Shown piece by piece: positions 4,796 to 30,359 of a stretch of 33,235 nucleotides of DNA. The stretch's first letter is position 1. Each line of letters begins with the position of its first letter. The translations under genes were made by a program, and so were the position numbers. The notes below the pieces were generated by a model that was given only the letters and a program-made list of their open reading frames with translations, was not told where the DNA came from and made no database searches. This DNA comes from a virus. The DNA lies in IMG/VR virus record IMGVR_UViG_3300027508_000028, positions 1 to 33,235 of that record; one strand, 5' to 3'.

Positions 4796-5053
4796 ATGAA
4801 ACTAACCAACGAACAAAAATCTGTTATCAGAGATGAATTATTCAGAAACATAAAGAACGATGAAACACGCTCAAAAATAATTTCAACCGCTTTCGGTTTC
4901 GCTCACGAAAATGGTGAAGATGGTGACATTGAAAAAATGGTTAGTTATTTGATGAATAACAAAAACAAAATTGATGAACTTTTTATGGAATTTGGTATGT
5001 CTATGCCATACTCATCTGAGACGAAACCTGAAAAGAAAAAAACCAAAAAGTAA
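4796..5053 (+). CDS. Small helical protein, unknown function
   Basis: This 85-aa protein begins MKLTNEQKSV and ends in a Lys-rich tail (KPEKKKTKK). A longer frame opens at TTG 4751 inside the upstream gene. ATG 4796 is preferred because AGGGA at 4784-4788 sits 7 bases upstream. The stop TAA overlaps the next ATG (TAATG, 5051-5055), so it is coupled to the ART-domain gene. The sequence is acidic-amphipathic with no recognised motif. Confidence 0.7.
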   Translation: MKLTNEQKSVIRDELFRNIKNDETRSKIISTAFGFAHENGEDGDIEKMVSYLMNNKNKIDELFMEFGMSMPYSSETKPEKKKTKK

Positions 5054-7260
5054 TGTCAGAAAATAAAGAAAAAACCACTAGAGATCAAGCGCTTCGTGTT
5101 GCCCGCATGCTTGGATGTCAGGGCGCTCATGAGACCGATACTGGCTGGATGCCTTGCGCCTCACACGAAGAATATGAGGGTATCAAAAAGGGTAAAGAAG
5201 AGTATCTGAAAGTTCGTGCTTCAAATAACAAAAAACCTTTGCCAAAAATGGTTCAACGCACCAAGCGTTTAGAAACAAAGTCTGATGCATATTACGAGAA
5301 TCGTGCTGATGCTGTTGCTATTTCTAAGGCTCGTGGTTGTGGTGGTGTGCGAACTGTCATGCTTGCAGGGAAAAAGTATTATGCGATTTGCAACCATAAG
5401 GCACCTAAACGGGGTTGGGAGAACCTTGACGAGAAACCTATTACTGGTATTGCTACTTTGCCGGGTGGCGGGCTTGTAACTGGCTCGTTTTCTGGTAAGT
5501 CTTTAGGTCGTCCTATTGGTGGTGTATCTGATTTTGATGGTGATGGTGACGGGTTCTCTACTGGTCCTGACGGAGAAGATAATATTCCTGTACCCAAAAT
5601 ACCTAAAAAAATGTTTCATGGAAGCACAGTGAAGTTGAATGTTGGGGACTACTTACTCCCACCTTCGGAAACTGGAGTTAAGCCACGAGCACATCCCGAC
5701 ATTGACGCAAATGAGTTCAACAACACAAACTACGTCTACCTAACTTCAAAACTTGAAGATGCTCGTGGTTATGGATCGGATGTCGTGAAACCCGGACAGA
5801 AGATATACATCTACGAAGTTGAACCATCTGACGATGTTGAAGAAGATCCAGAGAATGAAATTTTTGGGGTAGAAGGCGGATTTCGTTCTCGTAAAGCAAA
5901 AATAAAAAAGATAGTAGCGACTCTTACGAGTAATTCTGATGGGTCAATGGACGAAAAGGGTTTCGTCAACTTTGTTAGCCGTTCCACAGATCCTGATACT
6001 TTCAGCGATCCTGATTCTGCTCGTATCCGTTCAAGGAATCTTGGCTGTATCGGTATTCGCCGTTATACGGCACGGGATGGGAAACTTGTTTGGCTTCCAT
6101 GTTCCAATGTGTCCGACTACAACCGTGTCACAGGTATCCGAGGGGATAACAGCCCGAGGAATAATCCTCGCCGTCAGGGTTCGGGTTTCAAAAAGAAATC
6201 AGAAACAGAGGAAAAAGCACTTGGTCGTTCAATCGGTGGATATAGAAGAATGTTCAAACCGATCGGTGGGGTAGGCGCTCTTGAAGATGGAGACGGAGAC
6301 GGTTTTGCTACTGGTGCAGATGGCGAAGATAATATTCCTGTAGCAAAAGTGCCAAAACCTAAAAACAAAAAACCAGCGCCCAAGAAAAAAGTACCAAAGA
6401 AAAGGTTAACACCACAACAACAGCGCGAACGAACCAGATGGGAAAACCAACTTCGGCGAGACGAACTTGCTAAAAGGAAACGAGAGATTGAATTTGAGAT
6501 AGAGCGTCGTAAACCAGATGTCCCTCGTCTCCCACCGGGCATGGTCAGCATTGAAAAAGCCCGAGAAGTTAAAAAACATTGGGATGACCTTGTTGACAAT
6601 CTTTTTGAACAAGCAGAATGGGGCAACGACGAAAAGGCTCAGGAAAAGAAAAAACGGAAGTTGTTGGCTCAGGCTTATGTTGCCACGGCGCGCAAGTTTA
6701 AACTTTCTCCCAAGCAAGTACAGCAACACATGAACGAAGTTGGTAGAAGAGTGTACGACGATTTGCCATGGGTTTGGCGTCCAGAAGATCTACCAGTAAG
6801 AGACATCATGCTAGTACGAGGTGCAAAACCATCACAAAAAGATGCGCTAAGCGATGGCATCATTTCCTTCAAAGGTGTCCCTAAGCCAAAGAAAAAACCG
6901 CCGACTGTGACAAGCACAGACATCAACAACCTTGCTGTCATGGTACGCAAGAACAACGCTAAAGCAAAAACTTCTGCCAAAACCAACCTCCGTGACCTCA
7001 AGGTGGTATTCGTCAGAGGGCTGTCCGACGGAGGACGAGAAGAAGCAAATAATCGGGTCTCAAAGTTCCTATCGTTGCTGAACTCCGACAAACCTAAAGA
7101 TGTAAAGTATTCAGAAGATAATGATCTTTTGCCTATTGACCACCCATGGAAAAGCCGTAAAACAGCCAAGAAATGGGCTGATTTTGAAGAAGGCGAATAC
7201 GGTGTCAAATACGCTGGCGGATGCTGTCCAAAGGTAGTTAAAAGATACCGTCCCAAATAG
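5053..7260 (+). CDS. Multidomain virion-type protein with Arr-like ADP-ribosyltransferase domain
   Basis: This 735-aa protein has several modules. Three Cys-pair repeats (LGCQG...WMPC near 20-35; RGCGG...YYAIC near 95-113; LGCIG...WLPC near 330-353) alternate with two acidic loops, DFDGDGDG at 160-167 and EDGDGDG at 411-417. Each loop is followed by DGEDNIP and resembles a calcium-binding dockerin/EF-hand loop. Residues about 187-288 resemble rifampin ADP-ribosyltransferase (Arr): MFHGS with H189, YVYLTS with Y229, IYIYEVEPSDDVEEDPE with an acidic cluster near D265, then FRSRKAKIKKIV. Arr uses a His-Tyr-Asp triad, and all three positions have candidates here. The rest is a Lys/Pro-rich linker and a basic C-terminus ending GGCCPKVVKRYRPK. 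It lies directly upstream of the capsid gene, so packaging and injection like T4 Alt is an attractive inference. Rifampin resistance itself is not implied. Confidence 0.65.
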   Translation: MSENKEKTTRDQALRVARMLGCQGAHETDTGWMPCASHEEYEGIKKGKEEYLKVRASNNKKPLPKMVQRTKRLETKSDAYYENRADAVAISKARGCGGVRTVMLAGKKYYAICNHKAPKRGWENLDEKPITGIATLPGGGLVTGSFSGKSLGRPIGGVSDFDGDGDGFSTGPDGEDNIPVPKIPKKMFHGSTVKLNVGDYLLPPSETGVKPRAHPDIDANEFNNTNYVYLTSKLEDARGYGSDVVKPGQKIYIYEVEPSDDVEEDPENEIFGVEGGFRSRKAKIKKIVATLTSNSDGSMDEKGFVNFVSRSTDPDTFSDPDSARIRSRNLGCIGIRRYTARDGKLVWLPCSNVSDYNRVTGIRGDNSPRNNPRRQGSGFKKKSETEEKALGRSIGGYRRMFKPIGGVGALEDGDGDGFATGADGEDNIPVAKVPKPKNKKPAPKKKVPKKRLTPQQQRERTRWENQLRRDELAKRKREIEFEIERRKPDVPRLPPGMVSIEKAREVKKHWDDLVDNLFEQAEWGNDEKAQEKKKRKLLAQAYVATARKFKLSPKQVQQHMNEVGRRVYDDLPWVWRPEDLPVRDIMLVRGAKPSQKDALSDGIISFKGVPKPKKKPPTVTSTDINNLAVMVRKNNAKAKTSAKTNLRDLKVVFVRGLSDGGREEANNRVSKFLSLLNSDKPKDVKYSEDNDLLPIDHPWKSRKTAKKWADFEEGEYGVKYAGGCCPKVVKRYRPK

Positions 7261-9574: not shown

Positions 9575-9976
9575 ATGGAAAGATTTTGGTACGGTGCAAA
9601 ACTATTGAAAGTCATTGACGGTGACACTGTTGAGTTGATGGTTGATCTAGGTTTCAATATCCATCACAAAATGCGTGTTCGTTTGTATGGAATAAATACA
9701 CCAGAGTCTCGGACTAAGGATTTGAAGGAAAAAGAATTAGGTCTAAAAGCAAAGAAATTCACTGAAGATTGGCTGACAAGTCATGAGTGGGTTTTTGTTA
9801 ATACAATCCCCGACAAGAACGACAAGTACGGTCGCATTCTTGCGCGTATCTTCAGTTCTGATCAGATCAACGACCCTAAAACCGCCTGCCTAAACATAGA
9901 CATCATTCAGGCTGGTTGCGCTCGTGAGTACTTTGGTGTTGGCGACAAAACATGGGCTGAATTTAAAAACAACTAA
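9575..9976 (+). CDS. Staphylococcal-nuclease-like (thermonuclease family) protein
   Basis: This 133-aa single SNase domain would be a Ca2+-dependent phosphodiesterase on DNA or RNA. VIDGDTVEL gives D17 (Asp21 of staphylococcal nuclease), VRLYGINTPE gives R36, T42 and E44 (Arg35, Thr41, Glu43), and KYGR gives R87. The residue at the Asp40 calcium-ligand position is Asn (N41), a change I recall from other phage homologues, so calcium affinity or metal choice may differ. There is no signal peptide, so it acts in the cytoplasm. ATG 9575 is chosen over TTG 9569 because AAGGA (9564-9568) is 6 bases upstream. Its stop overlaps that of the convergent small gene (CTAA, 9973-9976). Confidence 0.88.
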   Translation: MERFWYGAKLLKVIDGDTVELMVDLGFNIHHKMRVRLYGINTPESRTKDLKEKELGLKAKKFTEDWLTSHEWVFVNTIPDKNDKYGRILARIFSSDQINDPKTACLNIDIIQAGCAREYFGVGDKTWAEFKNN

Positions 9977-10131
9977 AGTTTTGTTGTTGCCTGAAACTCG
10001 TAATACCTCAAGTCGCTTTTAAGGTAATCAATCTGTTTCTTTAGATCCGCTACCTCTATACGTAGTTTTTCTAATTCGCTATCAACCAAATGGTTGAATC
10101 CTTGTTCCGCTAGATGTGTTTTTTCAAGCAT
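9973..10131 (-). CDS. 52-aa coiled-coil protein
   Basis: This short frame begins MLEKTHLAEQG and ends FQATTKL. The middle (LEKLRIEVADLKKQIDYLK) has a clean leucine/isoleucine heptad pattern, so it should form a coiled coil. It is the last gene of the minus-strand operon and its stop overlaps the nuclease stop tail to tail. AGG lies only 3 bases before the ATG and AAAGGA lies about 13 before it, so ribosome binding is not strong. Function is unknown; protein-protein interaction or oligomerisation is possible. Confidence 0.5.
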   Translation of the reverse strand: MLEKTHLAEQGFNHLVDSELEKLRIEVADLKKQIDYLKSDLRYYEFQATTKL

Positions 10132-10148
10132 CTACCTAGATTAGTCCT

Positions 10149-10709
10149 TTATTCAACTAGTAAAAAGAATGTTGAAGAGAACCTTTTTCCCTTGGTTACA
10201 GGTCTAACCCAATGCCACAGGTTCGCATCAAAGAATATGCACGAATTTGGTTGTGGTTTTAGGGTGAATAAATTCCTCAACTCGGTGTTGTCTACAGGGG
10301 TTTGAGGCAAAGGCGGTTTACTGCTTGTGAAGCAAACTTCCCCACCTTCGTAGTCATCGTTCAAGTAGTAGACGGCAGAAGCATTCGGGGAGAAACCAAT
10401 CTCTGGATCGTCTGGATAATCCTTATTAGGGACAGAGTCTTGGTGAACATCCATTCCTCGGTTCTCATAAAAAGCAAGGACATTTCCACCTTTTATCTTG
10501 AGAAGATTTTGCTGACAGTGAAGCGGGTAAAGGGTATTGATTTGTTCACGAACTTCCCAAGTCCCAACGCCATCAAGGTTAACTAAATGCGGGGTTTGTT
10601 CACTTGAACCGCCATCACGGCTAAGAGCCTGATCAAGAATATCCTTGAAACGATCTTCTGCCAAGAAATTTGTTAAATAAACAAACGGGGTAAATGGTTC
10701 AACACCCAT
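10149..10709 (-). CDS. 2OG-Fe(II) oxygenase, prolyl-4-hydroxylase-like
   Basis: This 186-aa enzyme would couple 2-oxoglutarate decarboxylation to hydroxylation of an unknown substrate. Iron ligands are H89-x-D91 (DVHQD) and H166 (LWHWVRP); R176 (TKGKRFS) can bind 2-oxoglutarate. The YYLNDDYEGGEVCF strand is typical of the prolyl-4-hydroxylase alpha-subunit fold. A longer GTG start (10724) exists, but ATG 10709 shares its A with the upstream methyltransferase stop (TGATG), indicating coupling. Related enzymes in this window are at 26571-27509 and, more distantly, 19710-20474. Being in an operon with an FkbM-like methyltransferase suggests small-molecule, glycan or protein modification; the substrate cannot be read from sequence. 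Confidence 0.85.
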   Translation of the reverse strand: MGVEPFTPFVYLTNFLAEDRFKDILDQALSRDGGSSEQTPHLVNLDGVGTWEVREQINTLYPLHCQQNLLKIKGGNVLAFYENRGMDVHQDSVPNKDYPDDPEIGFSPNASAVYYLNDDYEGGEVCFTSSKPPLPQTPVDNTELRNLFTLKPQPNSCIFFDANLWHWVRPVTKGKRFSSTFFLLVE

Positions 10710-11296
10710 CAAAGCGTTTCCCACCTCATATGTTTCTTGTATACATCAGGGCTGATAACCGTTGGGTCAACCCACCAATCTTCGTGGATCGTTCTCACAA
10801 CAAGCGTGTAGCCAAGACAGTCAAGGATTTCCCGTTGTGCGTCTCTTTGCCCTGTATTACGGAAATACATGTTCGCGTCATGTTCAAAGGTAATAATTGA
10901 AAACCTGTACTGCGTTAAAGGAACAGTGATTAGACCTAGAAGAGTGGTGTAATGATTCCCGTTAGGTCTCGTAGCCCTGTCATAGCCAGTATCAATATCT
11001 ACTTGTAGGTAGTCAATTTGTTTTGGAAAATGGTTGTTATGAAAGTAACTGATGTAATCAAAGTTCAAAGCGTCACCCATGCAAGGGTTTGACCTGTTTT
11101 CAATGAACTCTTCACGACGCTCATCAACTAGTTCAAACGAGACACCCTGCCACCCGAATTGCTTTTCTAAAACATTGGTGTTGCTACCTTCAGATGAATG
11201 AAACGCGCCTAGTTCAACATAAAAGCCATCTTTTTTATAATCAAGAATGTCTAAAACAAATGCCTCTTGATTACTGCTACCTGTGTATCGGTTCAC
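10709..11296 (-). CDS. FkbM-like SAM-dependent methyltransferase
   Basis: This 195-aa protein has a class I methyltransferase nucleotide site: GFYVELGAFHSSEGSNT near residues 24-40 (motif I, with a variant glycine pattern), FGWQGVSFELVDER (acidic strand end that would bind the SAM ribose), and DYLQVDIDTGYD further on. FkbM-type enzymes methylate sugars, polyketides or peptides. The start is GTG 11296, overlapping the TGA of the upstream gene as GTGA; no good alternative ATG exists nearby. The C-terminus (WWVDPTVISPDVYKKHMRWETL) overlaps the next start. Small-molecule or glycan O-methylation is the family expectation; DNA methylation is unlikely because no SPPY/DPPY motif is present. Confidence 0.7.
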   Translation of the reverse strand: MNRYTGSSNQEAFVLDILDYKKDGFYVELGAFHSSEGSNTNVLEKQFGWQGVSFELVDERREEFIENRSNPCMGDALNFDYISYFHNNHFPKQIDYLQVDIDTGYDRATRPNGNHYTTLLGLITVPLTQYRFSIITFEHDANMYFRNTGQRDAQREILDCLGYTLVVRTIHEDWWVDPTVISPDVYKKHMRWETL

Positions 11297-11523
11297 TTCT
11301 TGAAACCGTTTTTCCGCACTAGATCGCCGACTGTTTTTATAGTTGAGCCAAGTGAACTTTTGATGTCCTGATTAGTTATGTTGACTTTCACGGTTTCTCT
11401 TTTTGCTGAATTCAACTCAGACTGAAGAATGCGAATCATCGTTTCAAGTTCTTTTAGTTTTTGGTTTGTTTCTTCAACAAACTCTTCAAAACGATTCTCC
11501 ATATTGTCTCCGCCGTAAGGCAT
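11293..11523 (-). CDS. Small coiled-coil protein
   Basis: This protein is 76 aa from ATG 11523 (MPYGGDNMENRF) or 69 aa from ATG 11502 (MENRF). Both have GGAG about 5-6 bases upstream. The frame continues further 5', but that part overlaps the convincing Cys gene and is rejected. EETNQKLKELETMIRILQSEL is a heptad-patterned coiled coil, followed by a basic tail ending RKNGFKK. Function unknown. Confidence 0.6.
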   Translation of the reverse strand: MPYGGDNMENRFEEFVEETNQKLKELETMIRILQSELNSAKRETVKVNITNQDIKSSLGSTIKTVGDLVRKNGFKK

Positions 11524-11524
11524 T

Positions 11525-11791
11525 TCATTCTCCGTTTTCTTGTTTTTCAACAATCCTGATCGCTCGTGAACATATTCTATCCCATTGTTCTGGATGGTTA
11601 TCTTTAATCCATTTAATGGCGATCTGTGAACGCTTGTTGGCAACGATTTGGTGAAACCTAGCCTGAGACTTTCCTGCTGAGGTTTTTCTGTACCCACGCA
11701 TGTATTCGGCGGCTGCTTTTTTGCATAGTCCGCATCTACATTTAGAGTTCGTGTATGTGGCGTAAAGCCCGTGAATTATTTCGTCTGCCAT
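11525..11791 (-). CDS. Small Cys-motif protein (CRCGLCKKAAAEYMRGYRK)
   Basis: This 88-aa basic protein begins MADEIIHGLYATYTNSKCRCGLCKK. The pattern H-G-x-x-x-x-Y-x-N-x-KCRCxxC followed by a YMRGYRK helix recurs in actinophage small proteins. It resembles a treble-clef or incomplete zinc-knuckle nucleic-acid-binding module, but the remaining zinc ligands are not obvious. The start overlaps the 3' end of the deacetylase-family gene by 16 bases. TTG 11797 is in frame but ATG 11791 is preferred. TATGGT ends 5 bases before it, so an internal leaderless start is possible. Confidence 0.65.
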   Translation of the reverse strand: MADEIIHGLYATYTNSKCRCGLCKKAAAEYMRGYRKTSAGKSQARFHQIVANKRSQIAIKWIKDNHPEQWDRICSRAIRIVEKQENGE

Positions 11792-12723
11792 GACCAACCA
11801 TAGATAGTTCGGAGGTGAGTTTTTGCCACATCATCTCGTGTTGTTTTTCCGCCAGAATATCCGCCTGCTAAAGCAAAAATAGCCTTGTTGGAACCAATGA
11901 AATTAGAAACCATTTTCTCTCGTTCCGCTATGACGCTTTCGTCTATCCCGTGAGATCCTATTGGATCAATTCCTGCGTTATAGATAAATAGTGTCTTATC
12001 TGTTACGAACGGTTCTGCCAAATTCAAGGCATTCCTAATTTCCTCTAAATAGTCTTCTTCACGACCAAGAACATGTAGGGAAGCCCATGTCTCGTTTTCG
12101 GCAATGTCATATTCGTCAAACCAGTTCGTTGATAAGTCAATGTGTCGGATCGGTTTAACTGATGTTTGAAAGTTCTTGTTGAATTCCTTCAAAAAGTCCA
12201 TGGTTCCACCGCCACAGTGAGCATCAAAATCAAGAACAATAGGTTCAAATCCTTGCTGATATGCGTGGATCGCTGACAGTGCTATCCCGTTGATAGTGCA
12301 AAACCCCGCACCGCTACCCCTTGAAGCATGATGAAGACCCGAGGAAAGACTTCCGCTCCTGTTAGAGCCTGCCTTCACATCGTCTACTGATGCCACTAAG
12401 CCGTGCGTGTGTGCGCGAGCAAACTTGTATGTGTTTTTGCACCAACCAAAACCTTGGCTTTGCGATAGATGTGAATCATTATTTGTCTTTAGTGCTTCAA
12501 CATATTTCGGGGTGAGCCATTTGCTGATGAGGCGATCCGTTACAGAAATGTCCGTGATCTGCTCAGGGTCAACAATTTGGATTTCGGGTATGTCTTTAAG
12601 TAAGCGAACCCTTTCGGCAATATCGTTATCCGAATTGATCATGCTGACAATGTTGTTTGATTTCCGTGATGTATCAAAATCATGCTTAATACATGTGTAG
12701 TTTTCGTTCCAAAAAACTTTCAT
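11776..12723 (-). CDS. Histone deacetylase / acetylpolyamine amidohydrolase family enzyme
   Basis: This 315-aa protein spans one arginase/deacetylase-fold domain. The landmarks are in family order: GLHHASRGSGAGFCTINGIAL with the catalytic His pair H131-H132, VLDFDAHCGGGT with zinc ligands D167 and H169 (family form DxHxGNGT), YNAGIDPIG with the third zinc ligand D253, and LAGGYS with the transition-state Tyr Y289. All catalytic residues are present, so it should be an active zinc amidohydrolase. Substrates in the family are acetyl-lysine in proteins, acetylpolyamines or related amides. A longer frame reaches 12780 but overlaps the phosphatase; ATG 12723 lies 4 bases past that stop. Encoding such an enzyme beside a phosphatase is unusual for a phage. 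Confidence 0.88.
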   Translation of the reverse strand: MKVFWNENYTCIKHDFDTSRKSNNIVSMINSDNDIAERVRLLKDIPEIQIVDPEQITDISVTDRLISKWLTPKYVEALKTNNDSHLSQSQGFGWCKNTYKFARAHTHGLVASVDDVKAGSNRSGSLSSGLHHASRGSGAGFCTINGIALSAIHAYQQGFEPIVLDFDAHCGGGTMDFLKEFNKNFQTSVKPIRHIDLSTNWFDEYDIAENETWASLHVLGREEDYLEEIRNALNLAEPFVTDKTLFIYNAGIDPIGSHGIDESVIAEREKMVSNFIGSNKAIFALAGGYSGGKTTRDDVAKTHLRTIYGWSWQTK

Positions 12724-12727
12724 CAAA

Positions 12728-13255
12728 TTACCAACCCATCTCTGTGTGGTTGTTGCGTATCTCTGAAAGAGTTGTTCCAAGATTGAAATAGTTATCTAAA
12801 TGTTTGACCATCAGCGTGTTGGGTGCAAAAGTGCGACGAGCACCACGATAGAAACTTTTCTCAATCGGATGCTGTTTTTGTAGCGTCAAAAATGCTTCAA
12901 GCGGGTCAACGCCATTTGCTATTGCCACGCCCCATGCTGTTGCTGTAGACCTAGATATTCCTGCGTGACAGTGAACCAACAACTTAGGAACTCCAACGCC
13001 AAATTCAATCAGTTCAACAACATCGTCAAATGTCGGTCCGCCATTGCTTTCAAACATGGTGTCCCTGAATTCAACGACCTTATGTATAGGGTGTTTGAAG
13101 TCACGCACTTCGTCCTTGAAAGGACCGGCGGTGATTACAGCGTCATATTCAAGGCATTGGCTTCGTGCTTCTTGAAGGTTTCTGACGGTCGGCATGGCTA
13201 TTAGTGAGGTTTCCATATATTCGCTTTCTTTAGTATTTGTAGGTATATTACTCAT
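12728..13255 (-). CDS. Protein tyrosine / dual-specificity phosphatase-like
   Basis: This 175-aa protein carries the CX5R P-loop VHCHAGISRSTA at 94-105, with nucleophile C96 and R102. The surrounding LLVHCHAGISRSTATAWGVAIA is characteristic of compact dual-specificity phosphatases; D65 or nearby acidic residues may be the general acid. The frame extends upstream to TTG 13315, but ATG 13255 is preferred because a -35/-10 pair ends 6 bases before it, making a leaderless mRNA. It is the first gene of a minus-strand operon with the deacetylase-family enzyme. The substrate may be phosphoprotein, phospholipid or RNA 5' phosphate. Confidence 0.85.
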   Translation of the reverse strand: MSNIPTNTKESEYMETSLIAMPTVRNLQEARSQCLEYDAVITAGPFKDEVRDFKHPIHKVVEFRDTMFESNGGPTFDDVVELIEFGVGVPKLLVHCHAGISRSTATAWGVAIANGVDPLEAFLTLQKQHPIEKSFYRGARRTFAPNTLMVKHLDNYFNLGTTLSEIRNNHTEMGW

Positions 13256-13261
13256 ACCGTA

Positions 13262-13291
13262 AGTGTAGCCCCCATGTGTGGCGTTTGGCAA
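13262..13291 (-). promoter_or_regulatory. Promoter of the phosphatase-deacetylase operon (leaderless)
   Basis: On the minus strand TTGCCA (13286-13291) and TACACT (13262-13267) are separated by 18 bases. TACACT ends 6 bases before ATG 13255, so transcription would begin at or next to the start codon. Confidence 0.65.
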
Positions 13292-13667: not shown

Positions 13668-13707
13668 CATTTGGGGCAATCAGTCTATGCCCCCTCGCAT
13701 AGAAGGG

Positions 13708-13740
13708 AAGGAGCGCCGAAAGGCGCTCCTTTTCCTTTTC
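13708..13740 (+). terminator. Intrinsic terminator
   Basis: AAGGAGCGCC (13708-13717), loop GAAA, GGCGCTCCTT (13722-13731), then a T-rich tail. Perfect 10-bp stem with a GNRA loop directly after the small basic gene. Confidence 0.9.
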
Positions 13741-14059: not shown

Positions 14060-14088
14060 TTTACTTAAAATACTTGGTGCTGTACTAT
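14060..14088 (+). promoter_or_regulatory. Possible promoter of the ribonucleotide reductase gene
   Basis: TTTACT (14060-14065), 17 bases, TACTAT (14083-14088) gives a leader of about 35 bases. The leader is too short for a cobalamin riboswitch. Confidence 0.4.
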
Positions 14089-14130
14089 TGTTCTCCACCC
14101 ATATTGCCTAGTGCGCCGAAAGAGGATGTA

Positions 14131-16059
14131 ATGACTTCGCTGTTATCCCAAGAATTTGTAGACCGATACAAAACACAGACACCCCCATGGGGATTCAGCG
14201 GTCTTGGCGAGGTTGTCTACCTACGCACATACTCTCGTCGGATTGAAGAGTTGAACCGAAACGAAACTTGGTTGGAAACAGTACAGCGATGCGTGAACGG
14301 TGCAGTAGAAATTGGGACACCACTCACAAAAGATCAAGCAGAAAAACTTTTTGACCATGTATTTCACCTGCGTGGATCGTTCTCTGGTCGCGCCCTATGG
14401 CAACTTGGAACTCCGTTGATCAAGCAGTTCAATGCCGCTTCACTGAATAACTGCTATTTCGTAAACATAGAAAAAGTAGAAGATTTTGAGTTCCTCTTTG
14501 ATCACCTGATGCTTGGCGGTGGAGTTGGATTCTCCGTTGAACGAGCAAAAATTCATGATCTACCAAAAGTTTTGCCTAATGTAAAAATCACACACGACCG
14601 TTCAAACGATGCAGACATCATTGTTCCTGACTCTCGTCAAGGTTGGAGACGGCTACTACACAGCGTCCTTAAGTCTTATTTTGATACAGGTAAATCTTTC
14701 TCCTATTCAACGATCCTTATTCGCGAATTCGGTGCACCACTAAAAACATTCGGTGGAACAGCAAGCGGACCCGGTGCGTTGGTAGACGGAATTGCAGACA
14801 TTTGTAAAGTAATGGAAGCACGCGAAGGAAAAAAACTTCGTTCAATTGATGTCCTTGACATTTGCAACATCATCGGTCGGGTTGTTGTTTCAGGATCATC
14901 ACGACGCTCCGCACAGATCGCTATCGGCGACCCTGACGATGTTCTGTTTTTGCGAGCAAAGAACTGGGCTTCGGGAGATATCCCCGGCTACCGAGCAAAC
15001 TCAAACAACAGCATCTACGCCGACTACTACGACCACATCATGCCAGAACTATGGAAGGGCTACACAGGTGGCGGTGAGCCGTACGGCTTGGTGAATCGTC
15101 GCCTCGCCCGAAAGTTCGGACGACTCAAAGAAGAACGAGCAGATAAAACTATTGAAGGATTCAACCCATGTGCAGAAATTGGTTTGGGTGACGGAGAGTC
15201 CTGCAACCTTGCGACAATTTTCTTGCCGAACATATGCAGTATTGAGCAGTTCAAGGAACTATCAGAACTCCTTTACATGGTTCAAAAGCAAATCACTCGT
15301 CTTGCTTACCCTTACGCCAAAACAAATGCAATTGTTGCCAAAAATGCGCGTCTAGGACAAAGCATCTCTGGTGTTCTACAGGCTTCCGAGGAACAGGTTT
15401 CTTGGTTGGATGAGGCATACCGCAACCTTGACGAATTTGATGTCAACTATTCAAAGGAAAAAGGTTTCCCTCGTTCTGTCAGGTTGACAACCGTTCAGCC
15501 ATCAGGGACGCTCTCATTGCTCCCCGGGATCACTCCGGGCATTCATCCCGCATTCGCACCGTTCTACATCCGTAGGGTGCGTTTTGGAGCGTCTGACGCC
15601 CTTGTTGACGGTCTCCGCAAACGAGGACACAAGGTTGTTTGGGATATCGGCATTGACGGTCGCGAAGACCACACACGCTACGTCGTTGAATTCCCATGCA
15701 AGTCACCAGACAACGCAGTTCTCGCAGAAAACATGACAGCCGTTGAGCAACTTGAGTGGGTACGGAAAATGCAAACCGAGTGGGCAGACAACGCCGTTTC
15801 GGTGACCGTGTACTACCGCAAGGAAGAACTTGAATCCATCAAAGAGTGGCTCTCCAAGAACTACGACACAGGTGTCAAGTCTGTTTCATTCCTACTTCAC
15901 GCCGACCACAACTTCCCTTTGCCTCCATACGAAGAAATCACACCAGAACAGTATGGTTCGCTATTAAAGAAAATTGACATGAGCATTCCACTCAGTCAGG
16001 CAACAGGAATGGATCTCACCATTGACGATTGTGCGACTGGTGCCTGCCCAATAAAGTGA
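14131..16059 (+). CDS. nrdJ: Class II (adenosylcobalamin-dependent) ribonucleoside-triphosphate reductase
   Basis: This 642-aa enzyme reduces ribonucleotides to deoxyribonucleotides for phage DNA synthesis using a B12-derived radical. It follows the monomeric Lactobacillus leichmannii RTPR layout: RYKTQTPPWGFSGLGEVVYLRTYSR at the N-terminus, SLNNCYFV (first redox Cys), LGGGVGFSV, FGGTASGP, DICNIIGRVVVSGSSRRSA, FNPCAEIGLGDGESCNL (catalytic thiyl Cys and Glu, second redox Cys), TTVQPSGTLS, and the C-terminal DCATGACPIK with the cysteine pair that relays electrons from thioredoxin. At 642 aa it is about 100 residues shorter than the L. leichmannii enzyme. A longer TTG start (14074) is rejected: ATG 14131 has AGAGGA about 6 bases upstream. 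It depends on the host for cobalamin. Confidence 0.95.
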   Translation: MTSLLSQEFVDRYKTQTPPWGFSGLGEVVYLRTYSRRIEELNRNETWLETVQRCVNGAVEIGTPLTKDQAEKLFDHVFHLRGSFSGRALWQLGTPLIKQFNAASLNNCYFVNIEKVEDFEFLFDHLMLGGGVGFSVERAKIHDLPKVLPNVKITHDRSNDADIIVPDSRQGWRRLLHSVLKSYFDTGKSFSYSTILIREFGAPLKTFGGTASGPGALVDGIADICKVMEAREGKKLRSIDVLDICNIIGRVVVSGSSRRSAQIAIGDPDDVLFLRAKNWASGDIPGYRANSNNSIYADYYDHIMPELWKGYTGGGEPYGLVNRRLARKFGRLKEERADKTIEGFNPCAEIGLGDGESCNLATIFLPNICSIEQFKELSELLYMVQKQITRLAYPYAKTNAIVAKNARLGQSISGVLQASEEQVSWLDEAYRNLDEFDVNYSKEKGFPRSVRLTTVQPSGTLSLLPGITPGIHPAFAPFYIRRVRFGASDALVDGLRKRGHKVVWDIGIDGREDHTRYVVEFPCKSPDNAVLAENMTAVEQLEWVRKMQTEWADNAVSVTVYYRKEELESIKEWLSKNYDTGVKSVSFLLHADHNFPLPPYEEITPEQYGSLLKKIDMSIPLSQATGMDLTIDDCATGACPIK

Positions 16060-17256: not shown

Positions 17257-18633
17257 TTACCCCTCAGAAGCAACCTCAAAAAGCGTGAGTTGGCTTTCTT
17301 CAATCTCACGGGCAATTCTCAACTTCTCTTTTTCGGCAGATAGACGCTCAGTCGCAATCTGCGCATATTCGGGGTTCAACTCACAGCCCAAATATGATCT
17401 ACCCAACTTTTGTGCCACCACGCCAGTAGTGCCAGCACCAAAAAACACATCAAGCACTGTGCAGGGCACTGTTTCAGCGGTTTCGCATTTGCAAGCCTTT
17501 TCCCACCCGATTGTGTCGGTTTGGGAATAACCTGCGTCTCCCTTGCCATTTATTTCCCCATATGCGCCTTCGTAGTTGTTTGGACGGTAACGAGGATCGT
17601 TCACTGGAAGTTCGTTTCGGGCTATTCTCTTGCGATTCACTTGACGGACCATCGGTGACCCACATTGAGCACAACATCCCATTTCGCTCGTACCAGCGGA
17701 GATGCAAGGCTCTATCAGATCCTGCGGGAAGGTCGCGAAGTGCGCTCCCTTGAATGGTTTCGTTGTCACAGTCCATACAGACCTCTTGTTCCTAAAGGCT
17801 CCAGTTGAGCCATGCATTGCGTTAGAAATACCTGCATCTTTACGGCTGTCTGCACGAGACCCCCTGTCGTCGTAAGCATATTTTGCTGGTTCTTTTATTG
17901 CTTCACTGTCAAAGAAATAATGTGACTTCTTCGTCAACAGAAACATGTACTCATGCGCTTTGGTGCACCTATCGCGAACAGATTCGGGCATCGGATTCGG
18001 TTTAGCCCAAATAATGTCTTGACGCAAATACCAGCCGTCTGCTTGCAAAGCAAAGGCAACACGCCAAGGAACACCAACTAAATCTTTAGGTTTGAGATCG
18101 CCGTCATCGCGACCTATTTTGGCTCTGAAATCTTCGTTCTCCCCACCAGCGTTAGAAGCATTAGTAGAAGCGATTGACTGCTTCCACCCATTCCCGTTGC
18201 TACCTGCATAAGAGTCGCCGAGGTTCAACCAGAGCGTTCCGTCTTCTCGTAAAACTCTGCGAACTTCACGGAACACTTCCACCATATGTTCTACATATTC
18301 GTCAACGGTTGGCTCTAAACCAAGTTGGCTATCCTTGCGCATCGCTCCGCAACGAGGGCATTGGACTTTATAAATGCCGTCACCGATAGCGCCTTCAAGA
18401 AGTTTCTGTCCAGTTGAGCAACTCTCACTGAACTTACTATCCCGTTTATGAGAGCATTCAGGATCGCCACCAATCCAAGTGGCAGTTCCATAATCCCTTA
18501 GACCCCAATACGGTGGTGAGGTGACAACGCAGTGAATACTGTTATCCGCCAAAGACGCAAGAGTTTCCCGTACATCACCAAGGAGAATGTTTGAATCAAT
18601 AACAAATGGCAGCACTGTTTCTTCGTTTGTCAT
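17257..18633 (-). CDS. Beta-class DNA methyltransferase (N4-cytosine or N6-adenine)
   Basis: This 458-aa enzyme has TSPPYWGLRDYG (catalytic motif IV, residues 38-49) before VLDVFFGAGTTG (SAM-binding FxGxG motif I, near 405), the beta-class order. GVPWRVAFALQADGWYLRQDIIWAKPNPMPESV is typical of the family. The central insert includes CPRCGAMR and CCAQCGSPM Cys-pairs, which may form a zinc site in the target-recognition part. The SPPYW form is common in N4-cytosine enzymes, but N6-adenine cannot be excluded. GAGGGG lies 4-5 bases before ATG 18633; the longer frame to 18693 is rejected. No nuclease is adjacent, so it is an orphan that may protect phage DNA from restriction. Confidence 0.9.
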   Translation of the reverse strand: MTNEETVLPFVIDSNILLGDVRETLASLADNSIHCVVTSPPYWGLRDYGTATWIGGDPECSHKRDSKFSESCSTGQKLLEGAIGDGIYKVQCPRCGAMRKDSQLGLEPTVDEYVEHMVEVFREVRRVLREDGTLWLNLGDSYAGSNGNGWKQSIASTNASNAGGENEDFRAKIGRDDGDLKPKDLVGVPWRVAFALQADGWYLRQDIIWAKPNPMPESVRDRCTKAHEYMFLLTKKSHYFFDSEAIKEPAKYAYDDRGSRADSRKDAGISNAMHGSTGAFRNKRSVWTVTTKPFKGAHFATFPQDLIEPCISAGTSEMGCCAQCGSPMVRQVNRKRIARNELPVNDPRYRPNNYEGAYGEINGKGDAGYSQTDTIGWEKACKCETAETVPCTVLDVFFGAGTTGVVAQKLGRSYLGCELNPEYAQIATERLSAEKEKLRIAREIEESQLTLFEVASEG

Positions 18634-18646
18634 TTTTCCCCTCGTA

Positions 18647-18663
18647 AACCCCTCATTGGGGTT
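18647..18663. other. Short hairpin upstream of the methyltransferase ribosome-binding site
   Basis: AACCCC (18647-18652), loop TCATT, GGGGTT (18658-18663) lies between the H1-like gene stop and the methyltransferase start on the minus strand. No T-run follows in that direction. It could attenuate expression or stabilise the transcript. Confidence 0.4.
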
Positions 18664-18667
18664 AAGA

Positions 18668-18985
18668 CTACTTGCTAATCTTGAACCACGCAAGCATTTT
18701 CTTGCGAAGAGGCAAAGATTTCACATCATTAACTCTGATGACGGCAGTCTGTTCAGCCATGACCTTCATGAACTTTTCGGCATTTGCGAATTGTTCTTTC
18801 GTTTCACCGACTTTTGCCAACAAATAAGGATCCTTAGCAGCGACAAGTCCCTTAGTTTTCAGTCCAGATGCCTCTTTGGCAGGAGCCTTTTTAGCAGGAG
18901 TCTTCTTTGTAGGAGTCTTCTTTGCAGACGCCTTCTTGACGGGAGCCTTCTTTTTATTGGATTTTTTTGGTTGTTTTGATGTCAT
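18668..18985 (-). CDS. Histone-H1-like Lys/Ala/Pro-rich nucleoid-type protein
   Basis: This 105-aa protein begins MTSKQPKKSNKKK and has a run of [AP]-[KV]-K-[AT]-[SP]-type units (residues about 10-38) matching the low-complexity tails of histone H1 and actinobacterial HU-like proteins. The C-terminal half (DPYLLAKVGETKEQFANAEKFM, then PLRKKMLAWFKISK) is a compact helical region with basic ends. DNA coating or packaging, or modulation of host chromatin, is the likely role. The frame extends to 19033, but ATG 18985 is chosen because a TAGTGT -10 lies 7 bases upstream. Lysine-rich tails are acetylation targets, notable with the deacetylase-family gene in the same genome. Confidence 0.75.
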   Translation of the reverse strand: MTSKQPKKSNKKKAPVKKASAKKTPTKKTPAKKAPAKEASGLKTKGLVAAKDPYLLAKVGETKEQFANAEKFMKVMAEQTAVIRVNDVKSLPLRKKMLAWFKISK

Positions 18986-19709: not shown

Positions 19710-20474
19710 ATGGAACCAATAGATTTTTTCCACGAAAATGGTTATGTGGTATTCAAAAAGGCTATAAGCGAAAGTCTTATAGATGAATACAATTGTGCAT
19801 GGGATAAAGAAAACTCCGACAAAACTGATCAATATGGAAATAATTTTGGGTGGGATAAAGAGTCAGAGCACCTAGAACATCCCGAAGTAATGGACATAAT
19901 GTGCAGTCCAATTATTTCTGAATTTTTTGTTGAATTAGAACTTGCCGTTGCTCTTCATCGCGTGGACACTTGGGCTATGAGCAGTGAAAAACCTTGGCAT
20001 CATGATTCAACATTATCCAACCCAGTTGCATTCAATAACTATATTGGTGCTTGGGTTGCATCAGAAAATGTGTTGCCCGAATCAGGACCATTCCAACTCA
20101 TACCCAAATCGCACAAGTGGGATATTGACAAGTATTCAGTTTATTTCGGTGAAAATAATGGTGAGATTAGAGACGGCAGGTGGTTTAACCACGAAATAGA
20201 ACGGCAGATTGAAGATCACAAAGAAATTCAGCACTTTACATTTCTTGCCGAAAAAGGGGATGTTCTCATTTGGCATGGGAATCTAATTCACCGTGCACTC
20301 ATACCAACCAATAAACAAATTACACGAAAAGCGATCATCGGTCACTACAGCAACTCAAAGCAATATGAAGGTGCAGTTGACGAAGGATACGAAAAGAATA
20401 TGACCTCACTGCTTGGTGACCCAAACGTTAAACAATGGAAAAACTCAGGGTATTACTACGACAGAAAAAGGTAA
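19710..20474 (+). CDS. Phytanoyl-CoA dioxygenase (PhyH)-like 2OG-Fe(II) oxygenase
   Basis: This 254-aa protein opens with FFHENGYVVFKKAISESLIDEY, the typical PhyH start. Iron ligands are H97-x-D99 (PWHHDS) and H194 (HGNLIHRAL); R206 (ITRKAII) can hold 2-oxoglutarate. GPFQLIPKSHKWD is the conserved PhyH turn. The family hydroxylates diverse small molecules, including lipids, ectoine and phosphonates, so the substrate is open. TATAAA ends about 7 bases upstream of the ATG, which may give an extra leaderless start. It ends directly against the convergent small membrane-protein gene. Confidence 0.88.
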   Translation: MEPIDFFHENGYVVFKKAISESLIDEYNCAWDKENSDKTDQYGNNFGWDKESEHLEHPEVMDIMCSPIISEFFVELELAVALHRVDTWAMSSEKPWHHDSTLSNPVAFNNYIGAWVASENVLPESGPFQLIPKSHKWDIDKYSVYFGENNGEIRDGRWFNHEIERQIEDHKEIQHFTFLAEKGDVLIWHGNLIHRALIPTNKQITRKAIIGHYSNSKQYEGAVDEGYEKNMTSLLGDPNVKQWKNSGYYYDRKR

Positions 20475-23510: not shown

Positions 23511-23951
23511 TCAAATGTTTTTCTCGTATTTCCCAATTTTCTTTGCAAGTTCAATATCTAAAAAAACTGTCACATAGTTCACGCGAAGAATGTTGTCTTC
23601 GCCCACCTCTGACACAACCTCAACACTGTCCTGTGGACAACCTATGGAACTCGCAATCCCTGCCCGAAGTTGAGCAACATTAACTTCCTCATTTATTGAT
23701 TCATCATAAAAATCCCACACCTCTTCAAGGGTGGGTGGCTGAACGATAGTTAATGCTTTGAGTTCTCTTCCCTTTTCCTCCCCGATGACGCACCAAGTGC
23801 AAGCAATTTTCGGTGCAGATGACGCCCTTTTTCGGACTTCAATATGTCCGCATTCAAGTTTGTGATAATAAGAGACGTCACCCCACGCGCCTTGTTTGTC
23901 AATGGAGAGAATAGTCTTCTGTGGCGCAGATTTTTTATTTATCACGGGCAA
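23511..23951 (-). CDS. Zinc-ribbon-like phage protein, unknown function
   Basis: This 146-aa protein contains YYHKLECGHIEVRKRASSAPKIACTWC (residues about 28-54), a C-x-H plus C-x2-C arrangement able to bind zinc. The pattern is familiar in actinophage proteins. The C-terminal half (LEEVWDFYDESINEEVNVAQLRAGIAS onward, then EDNILRVNYVTVFLDIELAKK) is mixed alpha/beta. The start could be TTG 23951 or GTG 23945; no ATG is available. It overlaps the 3' end of the glycosyltransferase gene. Confidence 0.65.
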   Translation of the reverse strand: MPVINKKSAPQKTILSIDKQGAWGDVSYYHKLECGHIEVRKRASSAPKIACTWCVIGEEKGRELKALTIVQPPTLEEVWDFYDESINEEVNVAQLRAGIASSIGCPQDSVEVVSEVGEDNILRVNYVTVFLDIELAKKIGKYEKNI

Positions 23952-24918
23952 ATCTGTCTAAACCTATTTTGCTCATGTACGCATCGTATGATTCTTTATC
24001 TTTTGCACCGTAGAAACCAAGTTCTTCACCTTTTAAGATCACTGAAGCATGGTGATCCATTTGACTTCCACCCAGCGTTCTTGGTTTGTTACATTGCTCC
24101 ACTTTGACTTTGTTGCGCCAATCGTCCAACCCCACAGATTCTAGATATGCACCGTTTTTGCCACTCGTATACTGCGTGTTGATTTTCATGCCGTATATAC
24201 GGTATCCGCGAGTCCATGCCCTCATTGCTAAAACGTGCTCCTCGCCCCAAAAAAATAGTCGCGGATCAGCCTCGCAGTCAAACAGAAAGTCTCTTGTTGA
24301 AAAGTGAAAGGAACCAGAAATCATGTGGACTTCTTTGTATCCGTTTTCCAAATCGGATTCACTCCAAGAATAGTCTGTTTGTTTTTCATGCTCGGAATTT
24401 AAGGCGAACTTGTTTAACTGCCAAACAAGGCTGTCCATCCAACTATCCAAATTCGGGGGTTCTTTTTCATGCACCCAAATATCCTCAGACTCAGATTTTA
24501 TAAAATCTTCCTTATGTAAGTTTATTTTATAAAATCCACCAGTTAAATGACTTAATATTAATTTGCTTGTATTTTCTTGTTTCTCTATTTTTCTAAAATA
24601 TTCAATTAGTACCGAGTCCCATTTTTCTTTCATTCTTGTATGGGCGTCTACACGTAAAACAAATTCCTCTTCTTGAAGCAACTGAGATGCAAGGTAATAG
24701 GCATGCCCAAGACCAAGCGGGAACGGGGAACGCAAATCAACGACACGAACATGATCGCCGAAACAGTCAAAAGTCTCAAAATCCTTTCTATCCGAACGCT
24801 GATTACATATACCGACGAAAACACGATCAGGATCGTCTGCCATCTCAAAAATGCTGTCAACGGTCTTGACGAGATCCTCTTCCTGAAAAGACGGAATTGC
24901 AACAAAAATACGATCCAT
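23935..24918 (-). CDS. GlcNAc-transferase-like glycosyltransferase
   Basis: This 327-aa protein has a GT-A nucleotide-sugar fold: IFVAIPSFQEEDLVKTVDSIFEMADDPDRVFVGICNQ at the N-terminus, a DxD-like RVDAHTRM at 89-96, and FSTRDFLFDCEADPRLFFWGEEHVLAMRAWTRGYRIYG late. These match the (Skp1-type) GlcNAc-transferase family found in bacteria and phages. It would add a sugar to protein, cell-wall glycan or possibly modified DNA base. There is no signal peptide, so it acts in the cytoplasm. The start is leaderless: TACTAT ends 6 bases before the ATG, in a region shared with the divergent resolvase gene. Confidence 0.8.
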   Translation of the reverse strand: MDRIFVAIPSFQEEDLVKTVDSIFEMADDPDRVFVGICNQRSDRKDFETFDCFGDHVRVVDLRSPFPLGLGHAYYLASQLLQEEEFVLRVDAHTRMKEKWDSVLIEYFRKIEKQENTSKLILSHLTGGFYKINLHKEDFIKSESEDIWVHEKEPPNLDSWMDSLVWQLNKFALNSEHEKQTDYSWSESDLENGYKEVHMISGSFHFSTRDFLFDCEADPRLFFWGEEHVLAMRAWTRGYRIYGMKINTQYTSGKNGAYLESVGLDDWRNKVKVEQCNKPRTLGGSQMDHHASVILKGEELGFYGAKDKESYDAYMSKIGLDRFARDK

Positions 24919-25806: not shown

Positions 25807-26574
25807 ATGTCAGGTATTCATAAAAGCATAGAACACCTAGCAACACCGCTAGAAAAACTTGTGCACCTTGAAAATAATCCGCGCAAAGGAAACATTGATG
25901 CAATCGTTGCGTCATACCGTGAATTTGGTCAAGTAAAACCGATCGTAATCAAAGACAACACTGACGGAACATCAACAATTATTGCTGGAAACCATCAGTA
26001 TGAAGCAGCGAAAAAACTTGGGTGGGAAACAATCGCATGCGTAAAATTTGAAGGAAATACAGAAAGCGCAATCGCTTATGCCCTAGCCGATAACCGTACA
26101 AACGAACTTGGCACTACGGACAGCAATATGCTTTTTGAACTACTCGGAGAAGTTGGCGAACAATACGACAACCTCATAGACGCTCTTGGGTGGGACGAAT
26201 TTGATTTAGCCGCCATGGAAGGCGACTACTACCAAGAAGACGATGCGCCATACGAAGCACCAGTTATTCAACCAATAGCAACGATAGAACCGTCAAGCAA
26301 CCCAACCGTTATAAGTACACAAATGGAAAACGGCGAAACAATGCTTACTGCGCCTAAGGGCACAGACATACAGCAAGCAGTGACTCAGGGCGCGCCGTCG
26401 GTGGTTGCTAACGGTTCAAAAACTATTGTTCAATACACCCTTGTATTTGACAGCCCTGATCAGCAAAGAAAATGGTATGACTTTATTCGCTGGCTAAAAA
26501 GCGATCCCGGCACAGACGGAGAGACAACAGCCGAACGAGTTCTCAACTTTGTTGACGCACACGCCAACTATTAG
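25807..26574 (+). CDS. ParB-like nuclease/DNA-binding domain protein
   Basis: This 255-aa protein has an N-terminal ParB/Srx domain (about residues 10-120): NPRKGNIDAIVASYREFGQVKPIVI, IIAGNHQYEAAKKLGWETIACVKFE, and ALADNRTNELG. In chromosomal ParB this domain binds CTP; in phages the same domain is often attached to methyltransferases or works alone. A Pro/Thr-rich linker (165-210) joins a small C-terminal domain (YTLVFDSPDQQRKWYDFIRWLK). No ParA or parS is apparent, so a partition role is unlikely. Its stop overlaps that of the convergent oxygenase by 4 bases. Confidence 0.85.
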   Translation: MSGIHKSIEHLATPLEKLVHLENNPRKGNIDAIVASYREFGQVKPIVIKDNTDGTSTIIAGNHQYEAAKKLGWETIACVKFEGNTESAIAYALADNRTNELGTTDSNMLFELLGEVGEQYDNLIDALGWDEFDLAAMEGDYYQEDDAPYEAPVIQPIATIEPSSNPTVISTQMENGETMLTAPKGTDIQQAVTQGAPSVVANGSKTIVQYTLVFDSPDQQRKWYDFIRWLKSDPGTDGETTAERVLNFVDAHANY

Positions 26575-27509
26575 TCAAATAGTTCAATTTCCCGTGCGGT
26601 TATTTTTTCGTCTGAAGCATATTTTTTGTACAGTTTTTTGATAATTGGGTGAACAGAAACCGTGTCATTTGAATAATCAATCATGAGTTGGTTAAACAAA
26701 CTGTCATAGAAACTATCAGGACCACGCGGGCTATGACCCCTTGGGTATGCGCTCTCAAGGGAAAGCATTTCTTCTGTGGGTATATGGTTATACATTAAAT
26801 AGTTGCGTGAAAAGTATTTTCTTTTTTTCTTGACCGCATTTGCGCAATGGAAATAGCAGTCACCATCAAGAGGGAAATAGGGTGAACCAGAGGGGAATAT
26901 AACAACCTCTCCAGCATTTGGCTTATACGAGATCAAGCCAGCAGAACTATAAAAAACTATTTCCCCACCCTCGTAATCGTCATTCCAGTAGAAATTGCAA
27001 GTCAGCAAAAAATTGACTTCAGGACGGCACATCTTTTTTATTTCAAAATCTGTGTGGTAGTTCATAGCCAGCGGTTTTTGGATTCCGTATATAGATTCCG
27101 TTCTTATACTCTTGTCGTGATCCATTTCAAAATCGGGTTCGTATTCCCCGAAATTGACCGCTGATTGAATATGAAAATCTGAGCCTTCTGGTTCAATAAC
27201 ACCATATGTTTTGCAGTAATCTTTTATTATCAGTTCTCTGCCCTGAATTATTCTATTTGCAAGATTTTTTTGACTAATAAAATTGGGATCTTCGCTATTT
27301 GACTGGTATGAACTTTCTTCGGTATCTGTTACCCGACCGAACGTATACCAATTCCTGTAAGGCTTAAAATAGCGAGGCGCATCAGGATCTTTGGTGGTAG
27401 TTCTTTCGTGCTCATAAATGACCTCAAGAACTTCCGCAACATCTGGAAACAGGTTTGTGTAAACACGAATATAAGGCGCAATTTCGTGTGATTCCAAAGA
27501 AAACTCCAT
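26571..27509 (-). CDS. 2OG-Fe(II) oxygenase, prolyl-4-hydroxylase-like
   Basis: This 312-aa enzyme has iron ligands H152-x-D154 (NYHTDFE) and H221 (DCYFHCANAV), with K/R residues at 227-230 to bind 2-oxoglutarate. FYWNDDYEGGEIVFY closely parallels YYLNDDYEGGEVCF of the oxygenase at 10149-10709, so the two are likely homologues. This one is longer, with about 120 extra N-terminal residues and a C-terminal helical tail. It is a single-gene unit with its own TAGTCT -10 six bases before ATG. The substrate is unknown. Confidence 0.85.
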   Translation of the reverse strand: MEFSLESHEIAPYIRVYTNLFPDVAEVLEVIYEHERTTTKDPDAPRYFKPYRNWYTFGRVTDTEESSYQSNSEDPNFISQKNLANRIIQGRELIIKDYCKTYGVIEPEGSDFHIQSAVNFGEYEPDFEMDHDKSIRTESIYGIQKPLAMNYHTDFEIKKMCRPEVNFLLTCNFYWNDDYEGGEIVFYSSAGLISYKPNAGEVVIFPSGSPYFPLDGDCYFHCANAVKKKRKYFSRNYLMYNHIPTEEMLSLESAYPRGHSPRGPDSFYDSLFNQLMIDYSNDTVSVHPIIKKLYKKYASDEKITAREIELFD

Positions 27510-29806: not shown

Positions 29807-30342
29807 ACCATATCGGGATAATCTCACCCGGCAAAATGGGTCGCACACTTGCGCTTACCCTCAACGCCAACGGAAACAAGACATATTTTGCTAGCCGAAG
29901 CAGAAAACCCGAAACAGTTACACTCGCAAAACAAGCAGGAATAATAGAACTGCCATCTATCAAAAACCTTGTACAAGAATGCGACACAATCATTTGCATC
30001 GGGACACAAGGAATCGCATTCAACACAGCATCACAAGTAGTGCTCGCACAACCATACGACGGTCTATACATAGACTTCAACTCCCTACACACCCCACAAG
30101 AAGAAAAAGATTGGCGTTTCCTAATGGAAATGTCCAACAGCCGATATGTAGAAGGTGCTTTACAGGGCTACCCGTTTGACATACTGCCAAAAACATCAGA
30201 CACCCACCTAATGATCCTCTCAGGTGAACATGCAGATGAAGCAGAAAAACTATTTGCCAACACAATATGGTATATAGAAAAAACTAAACGAAACGCAAAA
30301 ACGGTCAACAGAGAACCGTTCCAACAGTCCCACGATGGATAA
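29803..30342 (+). CDS. Rossmann-fold dehydrogenase fragment (6-phosphogluconate / 3-hydroxyisobutyrate dehydrogenase type)
   Basis: This 179-aa protein begins MNHIGIISPGKMGRTLALTL, the GxGxMG-type dinucleotide motif with the first glycine pattern altered (GIISPGKMG), followed by FASRSRKPETVTLAKQAG and DTIICIGTQG. The all-helical C-terminal domain needed for dimerisation and catalysis in full-length members (about 290 aa) is absent. It may be an NAD(P)-binding partner of the SDRs or a single-domain enzyme. ATG 29803 overlaps the upstream stop (ATGA). The C-terminus EPFQQSHDG carries the recurrent QQ[ST]xxx end described under the repeat entries. Confidence 0.7.
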   Translation: MNHIGIISPGKMGRTLALTLNANGNKTYFASRSRKPETVTLAKQAGIIELPSIKNLVQECDTIICIGTQGIAFNTASQVVLAQPYDGLYIDFNSLHTPQEEKDWRFLMEMSNSRYVEGALQGYPFDILPKTSDTHLMILSGEHADEAEKLFANTIWYIEKTKRNAKTVNREPFQQSHDG

Positions 30343-30359
30343 ACTTAAACGCGTGGAGA
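30321..30359 (+). repeat. Stop-to-start repeat element, copy 1
   Basis: AACAGTCCC (30323-30331), 6 bases, GATAAAC (30338-30344), followed by TTAAACGCGTGGAGACC. The stop codon TAA (30340-30342) lies in GATAAAC. An in-frame GTG (30353) of the methyltransferase sits where the next start lies in copies 2 and 3. Confidence 0.7.

Follow-up and report, generated by a model that had tools for sequence, protein, structure and literature searches.

The 33,235-nucleotide stretch of phage DNA analysed here (IMG/VR record IMGVR_UViG_3300027508_000028, positions 1 to 33,235; hereafter the window) carries a minus-strand cassette in which the gene of a phosphatase with a dual-specificity phosphatase (DSP) or protein tyrosine phosphatase (PTP) fold is directly followed by that of a zinc deacylase with a histone deacetylase (HDAC) fold. 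These two enzymes may jointly strip phosphoryl and acyl groups from shared targets during infection, a reading to which a probability of roughly 0.42 could be assigned. Seven close-packed minus-strand open reading frames (ORFs) spanned the region from 13255 down to 9973, in agreement with the preliminary description of this DNA, which had reported seven tightly linked genes there. The features of the cassette were as follows.

12728..13213, minus strand: DSP/PTP-fold phosphatase, 161 amino acids (aa) from ATG 13213; 175 aa from the alternative ATG 13255
11776..12723, minus strand: HDAC-fold zinc deacylase, 315 aa, with SSGLHHA, DFDAHCGGGT, YNAGIDP and ALAGGY; PF00850
11525..11791, minus strand: 88-aa protein (zf88) with the zinc-type motif HGxxxxYxxxKCRCxxC; core cassette
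11293..11502, minus strand: 69-aa coiled-coil protein (cc69); core cassette
10709..11296, minus strand: FkbM-like methyltransferase, PF05050 through homologue L104; optional, together with the oxygenase
10149..10709, minus strand: 2-oxoglutarate (2OG)-Fe(II) oxygenase with HQD...H...R intact; optional, together with the methyltransferase
9973..10131, minus strand: 52-aa coiled-coil protein (cc52), ending convergently with an SNase gene
13262..13291, minus strand: sigma-70-like promoter site, TTGCCA-N18-TACACT, supported by its conservation

The phosphatase stop codon is separated by 4 nucleotides from the deacylase start (ATG 12723), and the zf88 start (ATG 11791) overlaps the end of the deacylase gene by 16 nucleotides. 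Further downstream, the methyltransferase start (GTG 11296) shares a GTGA overlap with the cc69 stop, and the oxygenase start (ATG 10709) a TGATG overlap with the methyltransferase stop. Strong purifying selection was evident for five of the seven genes, namely those of the phosphatase, the deacylase, the 88-aa protein, the methyltransferase and the oxygenase, with dN/dS values of 0.01–0.2 over the pairs with measurable dS; the dS of cc69 was not measurable, and cc52 was left out. Comparison with related phages revealed that the seven-gene "operon" is composed of two units, a core of phosphatase, deacylase, zf88 and cc69 and an optional pair of methyltransferase and oxygenase. All close relatives with a contig across this site had the four core genes, in an unchanged order. 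Methyltransferase and oxygenase genes occurred together in the window and in lineages L005, L024, L009 and L012, and were both absent from lineages L006, L007, L010, L011, L015, L017 and L028, where cc52 usually lies directly after cc69. They are thus gained or lost as a pair, at a position between the two coiled-coil genes. Because this pair varies jointly, it forms a separate optional unit, and the four activities that had been read as one "reprogramming set" do not constitute one module. A single module of all seven genes, as first described, was rejected on account of the variability of this pair, which is missing from about seven lineages.

The association of the phosphatase with the deacylase was evaluated by whole-record searches of 40 contigs from more or less closely related phages, many of these records being fragments. 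Nine contigs had both genes and 27 had neither, while two carried the phosphatase alone and two the deacylase alone (Fisher p 1e-5, uncorrected for kinship); a weak match to the phosphatase profile in G329 (E 1e-6, in a 486-aa frame) was scored as absent. Wherever both genes were present (9/9 contigs), they were adjacent with the phosphatase first, and this adjacency and order were kept down to about 40% identity. The order was retained even within an inverted block in distant relatives (L054, L064, L068, L111) whose capsid protein is 70–75% identical. A search of relatives for co-occurrence, which had been proposed as a check, therefore separated the two units: the phosphatase and the deacylase are mostly found together (9 contigs with both, 4 with a single gene), whereas the methyltransferase and the oxygenase come and go. 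Likewise, independent gain and loss was seen for the latter two and was mostly not seen for the former, with 4 exceptions among the 40 contigs. A zf88-type protein adjoins the HDAC or the DSP gene in distant phages too. In a 105 kb phage record (L241:3196-4613), the deacylase gene overlaps that of a 178-aa protein which carries HG-Y-CRC-C, as zf88 does; a DSP was not found there. Searches of the open-licence literature turned up no phage cassette in which a DSP phosphatase is coupled to an HDAC-fold deacylase, in line with the earlier statement that no described phage module of such content was known.

The P-loop of the phosphatase, HCHAG[IM]SRS among the homologues and HCHAGISRS in the window, fits HCx5R. 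Cys82, Arg88 and Asp51 were invariant in 12 homologues, and Asp51, located in F-x-D-T, is a candidate general acid. The Pfam DSPc match was weak (18.5 bits, below the curated cut-off of 33.5); the structural model had a pLDDT of 90, and its matches were DUSP-type PDB entries with TM-scores of about 0.5–0.6. The assignment as a CX5R phosphatase was thus borne out by the P-loop and the conserved Asp, with the DSP fold coming from the model. The fold and the HCx5R P-loop are shared with atypical DSP/PTP enzymes such as Tk-PTP, DUSP13 and the DSP of Sulfolobales Beppu filamentous virus 3, from which the window phosphatase differs in being only 16–20% identical and in falling under the Pfam DSPc cut-off.

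The deacylase was matched by PF00850 (Hist_deacetyl) at 67 bits against a cut-off of 27.9. Among 25 homologues from phages and bacteria, its zinc ligands (D-x-H and D), the HH dyad and the catalytic Tyr did not vary. The model of the deacylase (pLDDT 88) had its best fold match in V. cholerae HdaH (Z 33.9), followed by Leptospira HDAC11 (31.7) and acetylpolyamine amidohydrolase (APAH; 30.8), and the profile of the deacylase family (A4) scored 120 bits against V. cholerae HdaH, 89 against HDAC11 and 49 against APAH; both the model and the profile were derived from an alignment of the window and relative-locus proteins only, without the phage E3 record. The deacylase belongs to the HDAC (arginase/deacetylase) superfamily, so that the intact zinc amidohydrolase of the preliminary description stands. 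Loss of catalytic residues in homologues, which would have spoken against that description, was not observed, the residues being invariant in 12 homologues for both enzymes and in 25 for the deacylase.

The acetyl specificity implied by the same description is not backed by the motifs. According to Graf et al. (PMC11532494), RPPxHH together with EGGY is tied to robust deacetylases and polyamine deacetylases, while loss of these motifs is tied to room for longer acyl chains. All 25 homologues carry SSGLHH and AGGY instead, and the label "deacetylase" is therefore not established for this enzyme. The best resemblance was to class IV HDACs, to which the deacylase is close without formally qualifying as a member: RPP is absent and AGGY present, yet SSGLHH is not an exact [GS]GGxHH (PMC11532494). 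The class IV loop-1 motif is HPFD in clade B, with the Pro replaced by Arg in clade A (PMC13325672); it was not found in the deacylases, which have xxFDT[TS]RK with the Pro unconserved and no Arg instead, the equivalence being judged by eye. V. cholerae HdaH (9gkv/9gky) and Leptospira HDAC11 (9gz5) share with the window deacylase the fold, the missing RPP, a small residue before GGY and a length of about 310 aa. In contrast to class IV enzymes, the window deacylase has SSGLHH rather than [GS]GG[FY]HH, a conserved FDT[TS]RK N-terminus rather than HPFD, the motif NAGxDP and a DSP partner gene; it further differs from HDACs in DFDAHCGGGT, with Gly where HDACs have Asp/Asn. Membership in the APAH group (cluster 4) was rejected, since neither RPPGHH nor EGGY occurred in the 25 homologues and the profile score was low. 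The bacterial and viral APAH/ApaH enzymes do share the fold, catalytic dyad, zinc ligands and Tyr with the window deacylase, some relatives of which adjoin polyamine transporter genes, but their viral examples reported so far come from giant viruses (PMC9992855).

A quick tree (midpoint root, without reference HDACs) placed the metagenomic phage deacylases in one clade separate from the bacterial sequences. Gp202 of Rhodococcus phage E3, annotated as a putative histone deacetylase, belongs to the same family (33% identity, with SSGLHHA and DFDAHCGGGT) but groups with the bacterial sequences and does not lie in a cassette of the window type; no DSP match was detected in the E3 record. The bacterial sequences point to a large HDAC-fold family of the SSGLHH/GGGT type, uncharacterised in the literature searched, which occurs in two sharply different contexts, polyamine uptake and DSP phosphatases.

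One genome scan gave 221 relatives, of which 80 were kept. In a Pfam-based count over 151 genomes, chosen for their kinship to an Ilumatobacteraceae metagenome-assembled genome (MAG; locus L191), 8 of the 28 deacylase genes had a DSPc domain at a distance of at most 2 kb, against 0.08 expected; with the limit at 5 kb there were 12, against 0.19 expected. In Acidimicrobiia, the deacylase adjoins DSP genes. The relative orientation of the two genes varies among these bacteria, and their DSPs have P-loops of at least two types. Taken together with the adjacency in phages, this proximity suggests that the coupling of phosphatase and deacylase is genuine and not phage-specific. In Antrihabitans (L121:7450-9363), a protein fusing an ADP-ribosylglycohydrolase, a DSPc domain and a macrodomain is encoded 0.5 kb from a deacylase-family gene, and in a Gemmataceae MAG (L137) an ADP-ribosylglycohydrolase gene abuts the deacylase. 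Such neighbours would be other removers of protein modifications and argue for erasure of modifications by the phage pair as well. A sigma-factor-like gene, recognised by eye, was located upstream of the DSP-deacylase pair in L182:338-1273 and L191:4251-5264, the cluster being found in four loci. In four Mycobacteriales loci (L115, L130, L144, L154), a gene upstream of the deacylase encodes a protein whose N-terminus (LVFLLDRSGSM) resembles von Willebrand A; the L115 protein had no Pfam match at E 0.001.

The phage host is probably actinobacterial, judging from sequence, because a 138 kb relative has a WhiB gene and the cultured phages with the best capsid matches infect Gordonia and Brevibacterium. 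On the preferred reading, the DSP-type phosphatase and the HDAC-fold zinc deacylase would be produced from closely packed neighbouring genes of the core cassette, and the 88-aa zinc-motif protein and the coiled-coil protein may target or scaffold both enzymes. The most likely targets would be regulatory proteins, of the host or of the phage, that carry modifications made by actinobacterial kinases and acyltransferases, with the outcome that host signalling or modification-based defence is undone. The enzymatic activities, the sharing of a target, its protein nature and the acyl group, probably not only acetyl, are all predicted here. The P-loop and the predicted fold, which resemble those of DUSP-type protein phosphatases, favour this reading, as does the scan of window ORFs, in which none of the polyamine families sought was present. 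That scan covered 25 window ORFs, most of the larger ones, and 83 of the 154 ORFs called at >=90 aa in the 138 kb relative; polyamine-synthesis, GNAT, kinase and sirtuin families were not found among them at E 1e-5. The post-translational reprogramming set suggested in the preliminary description is partly supported, in its coupling of phosphatase and deacylase, but not in its optional methyltransferase and oxygenase or in its acetyl specificity.

Several observations weigh against joint erasure of phosphoryl and acyl groups. Some phages have just one of the two genes, and DSP genes mostly occur without a deacylase; of the ten best matches to the phage DSP profile, only one had a deacylase gene within its locus of about 3 kb. 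The betaproteobacterial branch of the deacylase is tied to polyamine transport and not to a DSP. Since the phage deacylases form a clade of their own, function is not directly transferable from the bacterial enzymes and may have shifted, and kinship among the sampled genomes and among the phages inflates all probabilities. A wider proposal, that dephosphorylation and deacylation form a dedicated module common to phages and actinobacteria, sometimes joined in the latter by ADP-ribose erasers (glycohydrolase, macrodomain), which acts on common protein targets and with which phages reset host signalling or a modification-based defence, appears unlikely on present evidence. A two-protein recombinant system could reveal which bacterial phosphorylation and acylation are reversed.

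The main rival, kept in play by the polyamine-transport context, is the scavenging of small molecules, in which the deacylase would release a polyamine or similar amine from N-acylated reserves for phage replication and the phosphatase would act on a related or unrelated metabolite; we consider it rather unlikely. Ten betaproteobacterial deacylase genes, which make up one tree branch, lie after a potC-like gene, the deacylase start overlapping the potC stop at several loci, and the readable operons (L186, L147) have the order potD-potA-potB-potC-deacylase, with potA above the TIGR01187 cut-off. A glutamine-synthetase-family gene lies downstream of the deacylase in L140, and upstream of that in L134 lies a GNAT gene closest to spermidine acetyltransferase yet far below its cut-off. 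Moreover, giant viruses possess N-acetylspermidine amidohydrolases (PMC9992855), and V. cholerae HdaH may accept other small-molecule substrates (PMC11532494). The window deacylase, however, lacks the RPPGHH and EGGY of bacterial polyamine deacetylases (PMC11532494), and its family profile gives APAH 49 bits compared with 120 for V. cholerae HdaH. The phage clade is also separate from the potC-linked one, and the coupling to a DSP would be left unexplained. The polyamine option of the preliminary description thus draws its support only from the betaproteobacterial pot operons, no polyamine-synthesis family having appeared in the scanned phage ORFs.

Abortive infection based on kinases is known in other bacteria, and the phosphatase, with the deacylase, could conceivably reverse a kinase- or acyltransferase-based response of this kind in the host. 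The accessory character of the cassette, which runs opposite in direction to the capsid and ribonucleotide reductase genes and occurs in only some related phages, would suit such counter-defence. Nevertheless, neither the core genes nor their bacterial neighbours had a match in PADLOC-DB, which is not aimed at counter-defence, and the bacterial copies are not established as defence genes; this explanation is accordingly held to be improbable. An equally improbable account treats the genes as independent morons that share an insertion site and a promoter and no common pathway. It fits the coming and going of the methyltransferase and oxygenase, the existence of DSP-only and HDAC-only phages and the deacylase of Rhodococcus phage E3 without a detectable DSP, but it would make coincidences of both the gene order shared by divergent phages and the proximity seen in bacteria (8/28 against 0.08 expected).

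Regarding the optional unit, PF13640 (2OG-FeII_Oxy_3) matched the oxygenase at 44.2 bits (cut-off 27) and the HxD...H...R residues were present, as the preliminary description had held. Its FkbM-like methyltransferase could be supported through an intermediate, the phage homologue L104 matching PF05050 at 8.6e-15, but not directly, as no PF05050 match was obtained for the window protein even at E 10. The unit is probably involved in tailoring a glycan or a small molecule. A second 2OG-Fe(II) oxygenase (26571-27509) and a PhyH dioxygenase (19710-20474) are encoded elsewhere in the window, and in the 138 kb relative four of the ORFs scanned encode 2OG oxygenases.

The core cassette is probably transcribed from its own promoter. 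The sequence TACACTTACGGTAT at the promoter site was nearly invariant in about ten aligned lineages (TAAACT in L017; last T replaced by C in L028), and TACACTTACGGTA had a single exact occurrence in the 138 kb relative, at its cassette. A consensus promoter scan of the region gave 5 sites, fewer than the 8.4 in shuffled sequences, so the case for this promoter lies in conservation and not in the hexamers. With the promoter at 13291-13262, ATG 13255 would be leaderless, as had been suggested, but this codon is lost in several relatives: its equivalent is ATA or ACG in lineages L007, L026, L010, L011 and L028, where the start lies close to the counterpart of window position 13213. Lineages L012, L015 and L017 have the upstream ATG only, and the window carries both candidate starts. 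On the plus strand, 13705-13734 resembles a terminator, in which a strong stem of 13 pairs precedes a T-rich run.

Elsewhere in the window, a 735-aa protein with DUF3721 and a weak stretch similar to Arr-ms, a rifampin ADP-ribosyltransferase, at residues 188–267 is encoded directly upstream of the capsid gene (5053-7260); it is perhaps a virion-carried ADP-ribosyltransferase. A ribonucleotide reductase with a B12-dependent insertion domain (PF21995, PF17975, PF02867) is located at 14074-16059, each of these Pfam families having one match among the 25 window proteins scanned and the ORF being assigned by sequence and length. The window also encodes a GlcNAc-type glycosyltransferase (23935-24918) and two N6/N4 DNA methylases (17257-18693 and 30335-31072).

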